Shown here: positions 36,995 through 44,058 of the stretch, piece by piece
Numbering within the stretch: position 1 is the stretch's first letter
Layout: the number at the start of each line of letters is the position of its first letter
DNA from: Cognatiyoonia koreensis
GTDB lineage: Bacteria; Pseudomonadota; Alphaproteobacteria; Rhodobacterales; Rhodobacteraceae
Assembly (NCBI RefSeq): GCF_900109295.1
Contig: NZ_FOIZ01000001.1
Location: forward strand, 1,240,001-1,304,000
DNA length: 64,000 nt
Reading direction: 5' to 3'
Notes under the pieces: model-generated
The model's database searches: none
What the model was told of the DNA's origin: nothing
The model's input: only the letters and a program-made list of their open reading frames with translations
Program-made: the position numbers and the translations under genes

Positions 36995-37012
36995 GGAAAG
37001 GGGGACGGCGCG

Positions 37013-37453
37013 TCACGGACGCATTATTTCGTCCAGCGCCGCTTTTTCTTCTGCGCTCAGAGCCTCGGGCGGTGCCGTCTTGCGTCGTAGCGTGACGAAA
37101 CCGATGGCAAGCGCCAGCAAAAGCATCACTGGTGCAGATAACCAGAGGATCAGGTTGGCCCCGGTTTTCGTCGGGTTCAGAAGGACAAATTCGCCGTAAC
37201 GTGCCACGAGATAGTCCACCACTTCCTGATCGCTATCGCCTGCCACCAGTCGTTCACGCAGCACGATGCGCAACTCACCAGCAAGCGTCGCACTTGATTC
37301 ATCGATGCTTTCGTTCTGGCAGACCGGGCAACGAATTCCTTGCGAAATCTCGCGGGCGCGATCCTCTAGCACGGGATCATCCAGCATCTCGTCGGGTTGT
37401 ACGGCCCAAAGCGGGCTGGCGATCAGTGCAAGGATGAAAACAATGCGCTTCAT
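37013..37453 (-). CDS. ccmH: Cytochrome c maturation protein CcmH
   Basis: Periplasmic thiol-disulfide component of system I cytochrome c maturation that reduces apocytochrome for haem ligation. 146 residues. It has the signal peptide MKRIVFILALIASPLWAV, the redox motif in GIRCPVCQNESIDES (Cys-Pro-Val-Cys), the SDQEVVDYLVARYGEFVLL domain, and a C-terminal membrane helix (LILWLSAPVMLLLALAIGFV). Start overlaps the ccmF stop by 4 bp. Confidence 0.97.
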   Translation of the reverse strand: MKRIVFILALIASPLWAVQPDEMLDDPVLEDRAREISQGIRCPVCQNESIDESSATLAGELRIVLRERLVAGDSDQEVVDYLVARYGEFVLLNPTKTGANLILWLSAPVMLLLALAIGFVTLRRKTAPPEALSAEEKAALDEIMRP

Positions 37454-39423
37454 TCGGCAGGGACCGCGTTGGACTGTGGCCGCGACGCGCCAGCGGCCAC
37501 CCGCAGCCGTCGGTCCGTCAGGGAAAGAAGCCCACCAAGTGCCATCAGAATCGAGCCGCCCCAGATCCAGTTCGCCAGCGGTTTGATGTAGACCCTGACC
37601 GTGTAGCCACCATTCGCCTGTGGTTCTCCAATCACGACATAGACGTCCTGCAGGAAACCGTTTTTGATGGCAGCCTCTGTCGTTGGCATATTGGCGACTG
37701 GATAGAACCGGTTTTCAGGGTTCAGAGTGTAAGGCGTGCCGTTACCGCGTTGCACAGCAATATCAGCCATTGTGGTGACATAGTTCGGCCCGCGCAGCTG
37801 TTGCACGTCGGTCAGTGTGAATGTGTAGCGCCCCACTTCGTATGGCGTATCGAGCTGGGCGACACGGATATCCTCGATCTGCCAGGCGAGGATGCCGGCA
37901 ACTCCGATGAATGTAATCCCGAGCCCAGTGTGTGCCGTCATCTTGCCCCAGTCCGCCCGCGGCAGGCGTGTCAGGCGGCCCAGCCGATCGACACCGCTGC
38001 CGCGCCCAGTGCGGAGCGCCAAATCGACCAAGGCACCGCCAACGATCCATATCCCGAGTGCAAGACCGAGCGGGCCAAGTGACGAACGCCCCGTTTGGAT
38101 TGCAAACGCGAGACCAGCGCACGCAAGTGCGAAGAACGCCAGCACCCCCAAGGGCACCTTGGCGCGCCCTAACACACCGCGCTTCCATGCGAGGATCGAA
38201 CCCAGTGGCAGGATCAGCCCGAGTGCGATCATGAACGGTGTAAATGCCGCATCGAAAAACGGCGGCCCCACCGACAATGTGCGTCCCAGAACCAACTCCG
38301 CTATAAGTGGCCAGATTGTGCCAACGAAAACAACGAAGCAACTGACAGCGAGTAGGATGTTGTTCAGGAGAAGTGCGCTTTCGCGGCTGACTGCGCCAAA
38401 GACGCCTTTGGCTTGCATCTTATCGGCCCGAAGCGCGAATAGCACCAGCGAACCACCAAGGAAAATTCCGAGGATCGCAAGGATATAAACGCCCCTCTCT
38501 GGATCGTTTGCAAATGCGTGAACAGACGTCAGCACGCCGGAACGGACGATGAATGTTCCAAGCAATGAGAACCCGAATGCAAGGATGGCAAGCAGGATCG
38601 TCCAGCTTTTGAGCGTTTCACGCTTTTCCACAACGATGGCTGAATGCAGCAGCGCGGCAGCAATAAGCCACGGCATGAACGATGCATTTTCAACCGGATC
38701 CCAGAACCAGAACCCGCCCCAGCCGAGTTCGTAATAGGCCCACCATGAACCAAGCGCGATCCCGACTGTCAGGAACATCCACGCGGCAAGCGTCCATGGC
38801 CGAACCCAACGCGCCCACGCGGCGTCTACCCGCCCCTCGATCAAGGCAGCGACCGCAAAGCTGAATGTCATGCTCAGCCCGACGTATCCAAGGTAAAGAA
38901 ACGGCGGATGGAATGCCAAGCCTGGGTCCTGCAACAGCGGATTCAGGTCGGTTCCGTTCAAGGGTGCGTTTTCGAGCCGGATAAACGGGTTCGACGTAAA
39001 GAGGATAAAGGCGAAGAAGGCCACCGACACAGATCCCTGCACTGCAAGCACCCGCGCCCGCAGTGTATTGGGCAGACCTTCACCGAACCAGGCAGCAGAG
39101 GCCCCGAAGAGCGCAAGGATCAGTACCCATAGCAGCAATGAGCCTTCATGGTTTCCCCAGACGCCGCTGATCTTGTAGATCAGTGGCTTGTCGGTGTGTG
39201 AATTCAGATAGACCAGTTGCACGGAGAAATCCGAGACAATGAACGCCCAAGTTAGAACCGCGAACGAGAAAGCCACAAGAAGTGCCTGAGAGACGGCCGC
39301 AGGTTCAGCAAACCGCATCCAACCGAGCCAACCCTTCTGTGCCCCAACCATCGGTACGATCGTTTGAGCGATCGACATACCAAATGCCAGAATCAATGCG
39401 AAATGGGCGAGTTCTATCAACAT
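37450..39423 (-). CDS. ccmF: Cytochrome c haem lyase subunit CcmF
   Basis: A polytopic membrane protein of 657 residues that attaches haem to apocytochrome c. The tryptophan-rich WWD segment GWGGFWFWDPVENASFMPW is clear, together with ISGVWGNHEGSLLLWVLIL near residue 90, LAFHPPFLYLGYVGLS with a haem-ligand histidine, and a large periplasmic domain near the C-terminus. No SD is evident before the ATG. It is separated from ccmE by a three-gene lysis cassette. Confidence 0.97.
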   Translation of the reverse strand: MLIELAHFALILAFGMSIAQTIVPMVGAQKGWLGWMRFAEPAAVSQALLVAFSFAVLTWAFIVSDFSVQLVYLNSHTDKPLIYKISGVWGNHEGSLLLWVLILALFGASAAWFGEGLPNTLRARVLAVQGSVSVAFFAFILFTSNPFIRLENAPLNGTDLNPLLQDPGLAFHPPFLYLGYVGLSMTFSFAVAALIEGRVDAAWARWVRPWTLAAWMFLTVGIALGSWWAYYELGWGGFWFWDPVENASFMPWLIAAALLHSAIVVEKRETLKSWTILLAILAFGFSLLGTFIVRSGVLTSVHAFANDPERGVYILAILGIFLGGSLVLFALRADKMQAKGVFGAVSRESALLLNNILLAVSCFVVFVGTIWPLIAELVLGRTLSVGPPFFDAAFTPFMIALGLILPLGSILAWKRGVLGRAKVPLGVLAFFALACAGLAFAIQTGRSSLGPLGLALGIWIVGGALVDLALRTGRGSGVDRLGRLTRLPRADWGKMTAHTGLGITFIGVAGILAWQIEDIRVAQLDTPYEVGRYTFTLTDVQQLRGPNYVTTMADIAVQRGNGTPYTLNPENRFYPVANMPTTEAAIKNGFLQDVYVVIGEPQANGGYTVRVYIKPLANWIWGGSILMALGGLLSLTDRRLRVAAGASRPQSNAVPAE

Positions 39424-39500
39424 GCCGGCAAGTTATCGTATTTGATTGGCCAGCGGTATGCCTTCACGCAAAATTCAGCATGGGCAATTTGGCGCAGCGT

Positions 39501-39704
39501 TCAAAGCATCAGGCCACCTTGCAAGGCAAACGTCAGCCCGCCAAGAAGCAACCCGCCAATGATCAGGCGCACAAGCCATTTCAACGTGTCCTCGATGGCG
39601 ACCAGCCGGTCTGTGACATTGTCGCGATGGACAGCGTCGACAGCATTGCGGGTTTCAATGACAGCAAGACGCCGTTCGATTTTTTCAACCCAGTCAGTCG
39701 TCAT
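39501..39704 (-). CDS. XhlA-like small membrane protein of lysis cassette
   Basis: 67 residues: a charged amphipathic/coiled-coil N-terminal half (VEKIERRLAVIETRN, then RLVAIEDTLKWLVR) and one C-terminal membrane helix (LIIGGLLLGGLTFAL). This layout is that of the XhlA haemolysin/holin-accessory family found beside phage holins. It overlaps the holin gene by 11 bp and is the third gene of the cassette. Function as holin helper or spanin-like factor is inferred. Confidence 0.68.
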   Translation of the reverse strand: MTTDWVEKIERRLAVIETRNAVDAVHRDNVTDRLVAIEDTLKWLVRLIIGGLLLGGLTFALQGGLML

Positions 39705-40203
39705 GGTTTGCCTGCCAATCCGCGAGTGCCGGGTTATCCGGAGTCTGAGGGGCGTCTGGGGCTTTTGCCTTCAAACCTTGGCGCATTGCGACAGTCTGAA
39801 CGACAGAGCGTTGAAATTCCTGCCCTTTCGCCTGATGGCGCGCACCGAAATAGAAACTTACAATGGCCCCCATCAACCACCAAAGTGGCTCTGGCACCAG
39901 TGCAATGCCTACCATCCGTGACGCAAACCACTCTGGATCAAACATCGCACTCACGAACAGGCCAATTGTGCCGAGCGCAAGCATCGGGCGTGGCAGCCGA
40001 TTGAAACCATCCACCAACCTGTCGAAAATACCTTTACGCGGATGTGCGAACTCGGCTGCAAATTGGCGCAACGTCTCGCTCTGGACGTTTGCCGCGCGTT
40101 CTGCCCCTTTGTCAGCGTTCTCCCGAAAGACCTCGACGGTCTCTGCAACGACATTTCGACCGTCACCGAACACAAATGACATGACCTGCTGGATCAACCC
40201 CAT
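39694..40203 (-). CDS. Holin family protein (3TM type), GTA/phage-like
   Basis: About 169 residues. A soluble helical N-terminus (QQVMSFVFGDGRNVVAETVE) is followed by three hydrophobic stretches: PRPMLALGTIGLFVSAMF, ASRMVGIALVPEPLWWLMGA and IVSFYFG. A hydrophilic tail follows. This matches the 3TM holin proteins paired with GH108 endolysins in rhodobacterial gene transfer agents. I choose the Met at 40203 (AAGGA upstream, inside the endolysin gene); it overlaps the endolysin stop by 10 bp. Confidence 0.8.
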   Translation of the reverse strand: MGLIQQVMSFVFGDGRNVVAETVEVFRENADKGAERAANVQSETLRQFAAEFAHPRKGIFDRLVDGFNRLPRPMLALGTIGLFVSAMFDPEWFASRMVGIALVPEPLWWLMGAIVSFYFGARHQAKGQEFQRSVVQTVAMRQGLKAKAPDAPQTPDNPALADWQANHDD

Positions 40204-40805
40204 GATGCTGTCCTTTCGGCGTGTTGCTGGGACGTGAGATGATATTTGGGTGAAATAAACTCTTCCGCCCGCGTGATCCAACCGCCCTTTCCCCCATCAC
40301 GCCGCCGCGCATATTTGCGCGACGCGGCCCGCCTGTCGGCAAGGGCGTAATAGTAGTTGCGTCGCGCGATGCCGTACGCATCGGCGAGGTGATCCGGTGC
40401 GGCCTCATAGGCCGTCATCGCGGCATCAATCGTCTGTGGACCGATAACGCCATCGACATCCACACTGATCCGCATCTGGTTGAAAAGTCTTTGTAAAATC
40501 TTGACTGCATGCGATCCGGCATTGACGTACATGTCGAAGACCGAGGCATGCAAAATCTTGGGCAAGGCCGCAATGCGTGGGGCGTTGAAGTAATGCTGGA
40601 TAAAGATATCGACTGCGTGGGCCTGCGATAGTCGCCGCACGTCATCGCTTGTTACACGACCATCGCCGTTCAAATCGAGTCCGAGCCGGCGCATTGTGTG
40701 AATCGTCACGCCGTGGTTCGTGGCCCCGCCCGGATCGTCAGGATCATTCACATAGCCGCCTTCGCGGCGCACGATTTCACTTGCGATGTCGTGAACAGAC
40801 TGCAT
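40194..40805 (-). CDS. Endolysin, glycoside hydrolase family 108, GTA/phage-like
   Basis: A 203-residue peptidoglycan-degrading enzyme. The GH108 signature EGGYVNDPDDPGGATNHGVT covers residues 15-34 with the likely catalytic Glu15. The C-terminal peptidoglycan-binding domain (PG_binding_3) includes VDGVIGPQTIDAA. Residues 44-55 (DLNGDGRVTSDD) form an EF-hand-like calcium loop. There is no signal peptide, so export would need the adjacent holin. The pair recalls the unlinked lysis genes used for gene transfer agent release in Rhodobacter. Confidence 0.9.
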   Translation of the reverse strand: MQSVHDIASEIVRREGGYVNDPDDPGGATNHGVTIHTMRRLGLDLNGDGRVTSDDVRRLSQAHAVDIFIQHYFNAPRIAALPKILHASVFDMYVNAGSHAVKILQRLFNQMRISVDVDGVIGPQTIDAAMTAYEAAPDHLADAYGIARRNYYYALADRRAASRKYARRRDGGKGGWITRAEEFISPKYHLTSQQHAERTASWG

Positions 40806-40847
40806 GGCATTCCCCTGATTGAACGGGGAAATCCTGCGCCGATTAGG

Positions 40848-41306
40848 TTAATTCGTAATTGGTGCACCGTCCGGTGCGACGTAGGTGCCTTGTTCCTTCA
40901 AGGCGTCGATCACTTCTTTCGGCATGTACGTTTCGTCATGTTTCGCAAGAATTTCAACTGCTTCAAACGTTCCGTTAATGTAGCGACCCTGGCCTACCAT
41001 GCCTTGTCCTTCTTCAAACAAATCGGGCAGGATACCGGTATAGCGAACGGGAATGGTCGCTCCGCCATCGGTGACGCTAAATGCCACCTCGGTACCTTCA
41101 CCGCGCACGATTGAGCCAACTTCGACCAATCCGCCGATCCGGAACAGTTCGGTCTCGGACGGCGGATTTTCGGCCACTTGCGAAGGGGAATAGAAGAAAT
41201 TGATCCCATCGCGCATCGCGTATCCGATCAACGCTGTTGAAATCGCCAGCGCCACGAATGTGACGGCAATAACCTGTATTCGGCGTTGTTTCTTCAGTGA
41301 CTTCAT
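40848..41306 (-). CDS. ccmE: Cytochrome c maturation haem chaperone CcmE
   Basis: Carries haem covalently in the periplasm and hands it to CcmF. 152 residues. It has an N-terminal anchor ([20 protein letters not shown]), then the OB-fold ([34 protein letters not shown]) and the haem-binding [10 protein letters not shown] with His123 and Tyr127. Start overlaps the argC stop by 4 bp. Confidence 0.97.
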
Positions 41307-42331
41307 GGGAATACCGGTGCGACCATCAATCCAGAGGTTTCATTCAGACCTAACATCAGATTCGCGTTCTGCAAGGCCTGCCCCGATGAACCTTTTGTCA
41401 GATTATCAAGTGCAGCGATGATGATCGTGCGCCCCGGGATACGGTCGGCAACTACGCCGATATGGCAAAAGTTGCTCGCTCTGATGTGCTTGATCGACGG
41501 GTGTTCGCCTTTAGGCAGCGTGATGATGAACGTTTCATTCGCATACGCTTGCGACAACGTACTGTGGACCTCGTCCGCATCGCCATGCACATAAACCGTC
41601 GCAAGGATTCCCCGGTTCGCCGGCAGCAGATGCGGCGTGAACTGAACCTGTACCGGCCGCCCCGCGATGGCAGAGAATTCCTGATCGAACTCCCCTAGAT
41701 GTCGATGCGTCCCACCGACGGCATAGGCGTGGGCGCCTTCTGACAGCTCTGCGTGCAAGAGGTTTTCCTTTAATGACCGCCCTGCGCCCGAGACTGCCGC
41801 CTTTAGGTCGATAATGATATGATCAAGATCAATCACACTGGACGAAATGAGCGGCCGCAGCGCATATTGGCCAGTCGCAGCGTTGCATCCGGTTCCAGCC
41901 ACAAGCCGTGCGGTCTTGATTTGTTCACGATAGAATTCAGTCAATCCGTAAACCGCGGTTTTCTGCAGGTCAGGCGCGGCATGCGCTTTGCCATACCATT
42001 TTTCGTAGTCAGCGGTGTCACGGAGCCGGAAATCAGCGGACATATCAACGATTCTGACGTGATCGGGCAGTTTCGCGATCACCTCTTGTGAGGTTGCATG
42101 TGGAAGGCCGCAAAAAACCATGTCGACACCGTCAAAAGACATATCCTCGATGGTTGTTAGACGCGGCAGATCAAGATGGCGCAGGTGCGGAAACACCTCT
42201 GCCATGGTCATGCCGGCTTTGGAATTACCGGACAGACCGACGATTTTCAGGTCAGGATGGGTTGAAATCAGCCGGACGAGTTCTGCGCCCGTGTAGCCGG
42301 ATGCGCCCAGAATAGCGACGTTATAAGTCAT
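41303..42331 (-). CDS. argC: N-acetyl-gamma-glutamyl-phosphate reductase
   Basis: NADPH-dependent third step of arginine synthesis. 342 residues, the long (type 1) form. It has [46 protein letters not shown], the catalytic cysteine in [18 protein letters not shown], and [12 protein letters not shown]. It is in one transcript with murI upstream and ccmE downstream, a mixed housekeeping operon. Confidence 0.97.
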
Positions 42332-42356
42332 GATAGAAGCCTATTGGAAATTGCGA

Positions 42357-43169
42357 TTATGCTGATTGAAAGGTAATTTCACGTCGCAAAAACTGGGTCG
42401 CACGGGACGATACGCGCTTGGGATCGCCCGTTGTAAGATAGGTCACTCCCTCACCGCCACCTGCCAACTCCGGACGTCTTTCAAGGTAATGCGACAGGCT
42501 TGCTCCGACGAGTTCGGGTTGCGAAAAAACCTTTACGTCTGCCCCAAGCGCGTCCTGAAAGATGTCTTTGACCAGTGGATAGTGGGTACATCCAAGAACA
42601 GCCGCGTCAGGATTTGGCATTTTGCGTTTCAGTGCATCGACGTGCGACCGGACAAGTGCTTCGGCAAGGATCATATCCCCTTCCTCGATCGCATCAACAA
42701 CACCGCCGCACGATTGCGCCTCTACGTCGACGCCGATCGCGCGGAACGCCAGTTCGCGTTGAAACGCACGCGACGACACGGTTGCAGGAGTTGCAAAGAG
42801 CGCCACGTGTTTCACGTCGACTTCGCGCGGTGGTGAATTGTCACCCCATTCGCGTTCTGTCAGAGCCTCGATCATCGGGACAAAAACACCTAACACCCGT
42901 TTATCGGTCGGCACCCAGTTTTCTTGCATGCGGCGCAGCGCCGCGGCAGAGGCCGTATTGCAAGCGAGGATCACAAGATCGCAACCCTCATCGAAGAGTC
43001 GCTGCACCGACGCGGTCGTGAGCGCATAGATGTCGTCGGCATCACGGACGCCGTAGGGCGCATGTGCGCTGTCGCCCAGATAGACGAGCGGCAAGTCCGG
43101 CAGAGACTTCTGGACGGCGTCCAGCACCGTCAGCCCACCCAATCCGCTATCGAATATCCCGACCGCCAT
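42357..43169 (-). CDS. murI: Glutamate racemase
   Basis: Makes D-glutamate for peptidoglycan. About 270 residues. It has [31 protein letters not shown], the first catalytic cysteine in [15 protein letters not shown] and the second in [13 protein letters not shown]. The frame runs 53 codons further upstream, but the family start [12 protein letters not shown] fixes the ATG at 43169, giving a 23-bp overlap with the acyltransferase gene. Confidence 0.96.
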
Positions 43170-44058
43170 ACACCCGACCCTTATACCTGTGCTCAAATTC
43201 GTACCCCAATTGATTGCTGTCAATCGGACTTGGTGAAAGGTCATACGTCGCTTTGCGCAGGAAATCCATTGCTGCTGTGGGGTCTTGGCGGAATTGATCC
43301 AGAGCGTCACGCCCGATGGGTTTTCCAATGGCGACCTGCACCGGCGTGTTTACCCGCGTTTTGAATTCGCGGATCAAAAGTCCGACCCGCAACGTGCTGT
43401 TCAGTCGGCTTGCCAGTTGAAATAGCTGGCTGTTGCGGCCTTCAAAGAAGATCGGCACGACGACAGCATCCGATCTTGCAATCATCTTAGCCGTAAACGT
43501 CCGCCATTGCGGATCAAGAGCGGGGCGTCGCCAGCCAGGTGCGGTCGATACGGTGCCTCCTGGAAACACACCAATTGCGCCGCCTTGTCCCAGAAAAGCC
43601 AACGCGTCAGATCGGGTTTCGAGATTGCGCCGCACCGCGTCCTTGGTTTCCGCGAACGACACCGGAAGAATGGCATTTTGCAGGTCAGGCGCCTGTTGGA
43701 AAACGTGGTTCGCCATTATTTTGAACGTGCCAGCACGCCGCGCTGACAGGATATGTCCAAGCATCAGCCCATCGAGGATCCCGTAAGGATGGTTGGCCAC
43801 GACGACGACCGGTCCTGTGGGAGGGATATGCGAAAGGCTTCCTACGATCACATCAAGCGAGAGCCCATAACGCAAGGCCATAACATCCCAGAAGTCAGCT
43901 CCGTTGGCCAACTCGTCCTGATAGCCCATCGCTTTTCGGATCAACCCGATCCGTCCGGTCGCGTTTTCGATCGCCTTGATGACCGCGCGTCCAGATCGCC
44001 CCTTTGCTACAGAGGCATAGGTGATATCTCTTGCGATATGGCGAGAATGTCGCGTCAT
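43147..44058 (-). CDS. Lysophospholipid acyltransferase-like (PlsC domain) protein
   Basis: A 303-residue protein with a PlsC-type acyltransferase domain. The HX4D-type box appears as [16 protein letters not shown], followed by the glycerophosphate-binding-type [15 protein letters not shown] and [17 protein letters not shown]. Such proteins acylate lysophospholipids or ornithine lipids; the sequence is closer to the OlsA/haemolysin-type group than to canonical PlsC. It is the first gene of the murI-argC-ccmE transcript. Confidence 0.85.

Follow-up and report, generated by a model that had tools for sequence, protein, structure and literature searches.

How can the genes for a cell's own lysis be carried in the midst of housekeeping genes? 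Release of a gene-transfer agent (GTA) kills the cell, so lysis must stay confined to the few producing cells. How this is achieved for lysis genes located in a housekeeping cluster is not addressed in the literature that we searched, as far as its accessible text goes. The window analyzed here, a stretch of 64,000 nucleotides from Cognatiyoonia koreensis, raises this question by its gene order, argC-ccmE-[lysis]-ccmF-ccmH, made up as follows:

41303..42331, minus strand, argC, head of a presumed read-through operon
40848..41306, minus strand, ccmE (profile match), its ATG overlapping the argC stop codon as ATGA
40194..40805, minus strand, GH108 endolysin (holin-associated N-acetylmuramidase, NF040573), 203 aa, identified by profile scores
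39694..40203, minus strand, holin, GTA_holin_3TM (PF11351), 169 aa, 103 bits against a cut-off of 24.8
39501..39704, minus strand, XhlA-like small protein, 67 aa, with one C-terminal membrane segment by hydropathy
37450..39423, minus strand, ccmF (profile match)
37013-37453, minus strand, ccmH, next after ccmF

The three lysis genes overlap one another, by 10 nt between endolysin and holin and by 11 nt between holin and the XhlA-like gene, and are separated from ccmE by 42 nt and from ccmF by 77 nt. These coordinates and the profile matches confirm what a sequence-only reading of the locus had described, i.e., three overlapping genes for a GH108 endolysin, a holin, and an XhlA-like protein between ccmE and ccmF; the 42-nt gap after ccmE (40806-40847) is also as claimed there. 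The endolysin scores 362 bits against NF040573 (cut-off 240), 87.8 bits against PF05838, and 74.5 bits against PF09374, and close to its N terminus stands EGGYVNDPDDPGGATNHG, which we take to be an intact GH108 start region. The holin family is described as 'Holin of 3TMs, for gene-transfer release'. The earlier designation of a three-transmembrane holin thus holds for the family match, but hydropathy gives two clear membrane segments, not three. Since the third protein scores 30.9 bits against PF10779, under the Pfam cut-off of 34.7, we name it XhlA-like only; it also matches phrog_1193 'hemolysin' (3.2e-11).

Full-length reading frames in the window rule out decay into pseudogenes. PF05838 and PF11351 have one match each genome-wide, both at the lysis cassette. 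Across the order, an endolysin match was found in 152 of 158 genomes (151 above the cut-off), with no internal stop among the matches listed. Some genomes carry two or three NF040573 matches (e.g., G034, G038, G041, G071, G138, and G157).

The same genome contains an RcGTA-type cluster at C1:780280-789928, ∼0.49 Mb from the lysis cassette. It encodes a terminase, HK97 portal, protease, capsid, connector, head completion protein, and RcGTA tape measure protein (NF058675), together with an Rcc01695-family distal tail protein, a baseplate hub (TIGR02218), and an NlpC/P60 peptidase. At another locus, the genome has one DUF6456 protein, the annotation given to GafA homologues (PMC9638019), and thus one of gafA type. 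Because the endolysin and GTA holin occur in a genome with this cluster and this DUF6456 gene, the cassette is the known RcGTA-type lysis cassette (rcc00555/556) at a satellite locus, and the cassette itself is not new. The suspicion that this was a GTA lysis cassette lying apart from its structural genes is therefore borne out, the search of the genome having found the capsid cluster. Neither the absence of a GTA cluster nor gene decay applies, the cluster being present and the genes intact and conserved.

Among the six genomes of the order without the endolysin, four still have the GTA tail gene TIGR02217. The hub TIGR02218 is found in 33 of 40 endolysin-bearing genomes and is absent from seven, one of them from the same genus (G010). 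These seven either have lost the GTA and retained the cassette or carry a diverged TIGR02218 gene.

Rhodobacter capsulatus rcc00555/rcc00556 and Dinoroseobacter shibae Dshi_1756/1757, the latter named an endolysin/holin system (PMC6473078), likewise pair an endolysin with a holin for GTA release, away from the structural cluster (PMC6363796, PMC9638019, PMC6473078, PMC3423380). In R. capsulatus, disruption of rcc00555 reduced gene transfer (Hynes et al. 2012, cited in PMC3423380), and the accessible part of PMC3423380 describes direct proof of its lytic activity as then missing. The cassette there depends on GafA and CtrA (PMC6363796, PMC9638019): GafA binds the lysis promoter, and induction of the endolysin requires both regulators (PMC6363796). 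By the published descriptions, as far as available, the XhlA-like third gene distinguishes the window and part of its relatives from both cassettes.

We compared the locus with two sets of relatives. Set 1 comprises the best 80 of at least 453 confirmed related stretches, in some of which the contig ends early; set 2 adds 2.8-kb slices from 100 more genomes, with each genus represented by one to five, a few of these genomes repeating set 1. In set 1, the holin follows the endolysin in 80/80 stretches, with ccmE upstream in 72, ccmF downstream in 63, and both ccm genes in 57; the corresponding counts in set 2 are 99 for the holin and 88 for ccmE. A tblastn match to the XhlA-like gene was obtained in 24/80 and 12/100, respectively. 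With different leaders counted, 148/172 have ccmE no more than 250 nt upstream. Since ccmE is upstream in most relatives of both sets, embedding next to the ccm genes is the norm among the relatives examined and not an oddity of the window. The location within a ccm operon is thus the usual arrangement and no peculiarity.

As argC and ccmE overlap by 4 nt and only 42 nt separate ccmE from the endolysin, we predict that read-through from argC-ccmE into the endolysin gene is likely. Such read-through need not be required, because in some species ccmF may be transcribed from a promoter of its own. In the 100 nt before ccmF of 62 relatives, sigma-70-like hexamer pairs reach 9 of 12 positions in 21%, versus 2% of shuffles; a sigma-70 scan of the window's own pre-ccmF region (39424-39500) found no promoter on the ccmF strand.

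What is new here is the spacer between ccmE and the endolysin, in which a promoter-like motif and a hairpin covering the Shine-Dalgarno (SD) sequence overlap:

40846..40851, minus strand, TTAACC, putative CtrA half-site, overlapping the ccmE stop codon in the window
40831..40836, minus strand, CAGGAT, putative -10 element, at a fixed distance from TTAACC and with one mismatch to the family form CAGNCT
40825..40834, minus strand, 5′ arm of the hairpin, overlapping the putative -10 element
40816..40824, minus strand, hairpin loop and predicted transcription start region, as suggested by motif spacing
40806..40815, minus strand, 3′ arm of the hairpin, including GGGGA, the endolysin Shine-Dalgarno sequence

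The leader pool holds 181 leaders, 173 of them different (78 from set 1 and 95 from set 2), with start codons assigned by two slightly different rules across the leader analyses. Aligned on TTAA, the leaders show TTAAC(C), nine nt, and then CAgnCT (family form TTAACC-N9-CAGNCT), with profile values of 0.73 for A16, 0.57 for C19, and 0.84 for T20 (n = 120). TTAA occurs at -75 to -30 in 160 of the 173 unique leaders against 15.7 expected (200 mononucleotide shuffles, maximum 27), and TTAAC in 134 against 5.1 expected. The distance from TTAA to the endolysin ATG has an sd of 5.5 nt, versus 40.9 nt for the distance to the ccmE stop codon (n = 139), and in 40 of the 139 (the window among them) TTAA overlaps that stop codon. 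Because its spacing is tight to the endolysin ATG and variable to the ccmE stop, we assign the motif to the lysis gene. The sequence-only reading had set an internal promoter in this spacer against co-transcription with the ccm genes; a conserved promoter-like motif now speaks for the promoter, and the hairpin over the SD had gone unseen. Of the GafA/CtrA-type sites suggested there, the spacer shows a putative CtrA half-site conserved across leaders.

From its sequence, TTAACC would be a CtrA half-site, and putative half-sites of this kind are described for R. capsulatus at rcc00555/6 (PMC9638019). CAGNCT is a putative -10 element, so read because its two strongest positions are spaced like A-11 and T-7. 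Transcription is then predicted to start ∼27 nt past the beginning of TTAA, i.e., at 40824 in the window. In Caulobacter, CtrA activator sites have their 5′ nucleotide near -35 (PMC4287350, accessible part), and with the site so placed the predicted start would shift to ∼40816; both predictions fall in the hairpin loop. A sigma-70 consensus scan of 39300-42500 gave no minus-strand promoter, a point against this reading.

The motif is not a genome-wide mark of a GafA regulon, as the genome has 9 copies of TTAACC-N9-CANNNT versus 15 of the reversed control. One copy, TTAACC-N9-CAGGGT, lies 134 nt before the start of the gafA-type gene (L188, G000 C1:954102) and 39 nt farther on comes a full CtrA site. 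In a looser form, the motif precedes 2 of 30 gafA genes of relatives (3 of 31 with the genome's own), one of these overlapping a full CtrA site. Another copy, TTAACC-N9-CAGACT, lies 62 nt upstream of an ATG within a longer open frame (L189, G000 C1:1835427); this ATG begins MSGKILIIDRAATSRIVMKVKL, which by eye looks like a response-regulator domain.

In most species, the RNA between the promoter motif and the ATG folds into a hairpin, with the SD region in its 3′ arm. The arms differ widely in sequence between species, and their complementarity is retained. Compared with dinucleotide shuffles, the endolysin leaders of set 1 gave a mean z of -2.59, with 64% below -2 (81 leaders), and those of set 2 a mean z of -2.30 (95 leaders, none identical to set 1). 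The starts of seven control genes from the same loci (holin, ccmE, ccmF, ccmH, argC, ech, and xhlA) had mean z values of -0.70 to +0.27, with 0-13% below -2. A z of -1 or higher was obtained for 19% of the leaders in set 1 and 28% in set 2. Leaders of the seven hub-less genomes, too few to interpret, give a z below -3 in three cases, -1.39 in one, and -0.70 to +0.06 in the remaining three. The hairpin is not an intrinsic terminator, since the start codon follows directly 3′ and there is no T-run; a terminator scan reported two elsewhere, inside ccmE on the other strand and inside the XhlA-like gene. Nor is it a known Rfam element, with no match up to an E of 1 in 37000-43500.

We further exchanged leader halves between species, which keeps the promoter and SD consensus and loses the private complementarity of each leader. 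The mean chimera folded less well than a species' own leader in 76 of 78 cases in set 1 and in 90 of 100 in set 2, by 6.0 and 5.4 kcal/mol, respectively, the set 2 count taking all 100 leaders, of which five duplicate others in the pool. Mean folding was -17.5 (own) versus -11.5 kcal/mol (swapped) in set 1 and -17.3 versus -12.0 kcal/mol in set 2. Among six control genes, the difference was +0.2 to +0.3 in four and -1.5 in ccmF and ech. The window's own hairpin is moderate (-14.3 kcal/mol, z -1.47, 15/200 shuffles as good, swap rank 0.08), and the case for the hairpin therefore rests on the family.

Column-wise covariation is weak or absent. RNAalifold predicted no structure from 12 aligned leaders, several rows of which are off register by one as judged by eye, and an ungapped pair count showed no excess above slid controls. 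A gapped count gave two-sided changes of 0.13 versus 0.08-0.10 in controls and no excess of pairs kept (0.30 versus 0.30-0.32). We attribute this to register shifts; it remains a weakness, and because of it the argument for the hairpin rests on the alignment-free swap test.

These elements suggest how the cassette could be parked in argC-ccmE-[lysis]-ccmF-ccmH, with two layers that would block its expression by housekeeping read-through. The first would be its own promoter in the spacer, consisting of the CtrA half-site TTAACC and the -10-like CAGNCT nine nt on; the second would be the RNA hairpin encoded by the same nucleotides, the 3′ arm of which contains the endolysin SD. Read-through transcripts from argC-ccmE would contain both arms, and the ribosome site would be hidden, whereas transcripts from the internal promoter would start roughly where the 5′ arm ends, would not include that arm, and would be translated. 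Thus, an SD-covering hairpin would make read-through harmless. We consider it reasonably probable that such a lock works in this way at the endolysin gene; the genes and their synteny, the motif, the conservation of the hairpin, and the complementarity of its arms within species are observed, and from them we infer the start site, the action of CtrA or GafA, the read-through, and the repression.

Modeled unpairedness of the SD rises from 0.197 in read-through RNA to 0.473 in RNA beginning at the predicted start (160 leaders); it goes up in 91% of these leaders, by more than 0.3 in 46%, and stays at ∼0.20-0.22 for starts up to offset 12. Five control genes gave 0.32-0.44 for whole and 0.39-0.52 for truncated RNA, the read-through value of the endolysin lying below all five. 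Plain truncation explains part of the rise, as the controls gain 0.02 to 0.20 (ech from 0.32 to 0.52). Mean z is -2.57 with ccmE closely upstream (148 leaders) versus -1.36 otherwise (23 leaders; p 0.002, with species not independent and leader L075 left out). A stronger hairpin close behind ccmE is what would be expected if it guards against ccm read-through.

The lock has two main rivals, one a DNA site of GafA type and the other a hairpin shared by all endolysin transcripts. Under the former, CtrA and GafA act at an internal promoter of an ordinary GTA lysis cassette, and there is no RNA lock, the inverted repeat serving in DNA as the site of GafA or of some other dimer. We regard this as unlikely. 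GafA does bind the R. capsulatus lysis promoter (PMC6363796), and the repeat overlaps the predicted promoter; however, arms that vary so widely between species and stay complementary are unlike a sequence-specific site, and the 3′ arm takes in the SD region, where the mean unpairedness is the 0.197 given above. Moreover, sense RNA folds better than antisense (-17.4 versus -14.6; n = 173), and the antisense z is weaker as well. This strand difference favors an RNA rather than a DNA role, though ccmF comes close: among five controls the difference is at most 2.0 in either direction, and the ccmF excess of 2.0, nearly equal to the 2.8 kcal/mol of the endolysin, counts toward the DNA site.

The other possibility is that transcription starts upstream of the 5′ arm, so that all endolysin mRNAs carry the hairpin, which sets a low or conditional translation and is opened, e.g., by a factor or by temperature. 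The predicted start does come from motif spacing, and strong hairpins persist in several cassettes that have no ccmE upstream (L058, L133, and L134), which fits this explanation and counts against the lock. Against it, the conserved A16 and T20 lie in or just before the 5′ arm and place the start at the arm's end, and a CtrA site near -35 (PMC4287350, accessible part) would put it further into the loop or 3′ arm; we therefore think this alternative improbable. Simple co-transcription with the ccm genes, the hairpin being incidental to GC-rich, SD-containing spacers, would fit the window's own z of only -1.47 and the weak column-wise covariation, but it is already disfavored by the swap test, in which exchanging halves destroys the effect with promoter and SD consensus kept, and the effect is absent or weak in seven control genes of the same loci, so that we hold it very unlikely.

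The proposed lock resembles a device known from phage T4. The leaders of gene e, soc, and I-TevI likewise hide the SD in a hairpin of long read-through transcripts (PMC3014915, PMC2988022), and for e and I-TevI the SD is free in late-promoter transcripts lacking the 5′ part (PMC3014915, PMC2988022). For gene e, the long transcripts are early ones, and those from the late promoter start near the ribosome site (PMC3014915). We claim no homology. In contrast to T4, the present case concerns a chromosomal lysis gene of a domesticated phage within a housekeeping cluster, with a putative CtrA half-site instead of the T4 late promoter, arm sequences that turn over between species, and a predicted mechanism. 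The Caulobacter GTA has in LypABC a likewise dedicated alphaproteobacterial release step under Gaf-type control; unlike in the window, its authors found no holin-endolysin genes (PMC13236601, accessible part). An SD hairpin over a GTA lysis promoter is not described in the literature that we searched, which was mostly non-subscription and partly accessible, and an earlier mention is possible.

Taken together, a fast-evolving hairpin atop the cassette's own promoter probably silences the lysis genes except during GTA release. For the Rhodobacterales as a whole, we lean slightly toward the view that the same ∼45 nt have two roles, a promoter dependent on CtrA at the DNA level and, in RNA from read-through, a hairpin that hides the SD, their function being kept while the sequence turns over, so that the lethal genes of a domesticated phage can live in a housekeeping operon. 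As column-wise covariation fails, this would be an RNA element recognizable mainly by complementarity within each sequence. If true, the lock would give a simple, testable answer to how lysis is confined and would tie GTAs to a classic phage timing device.
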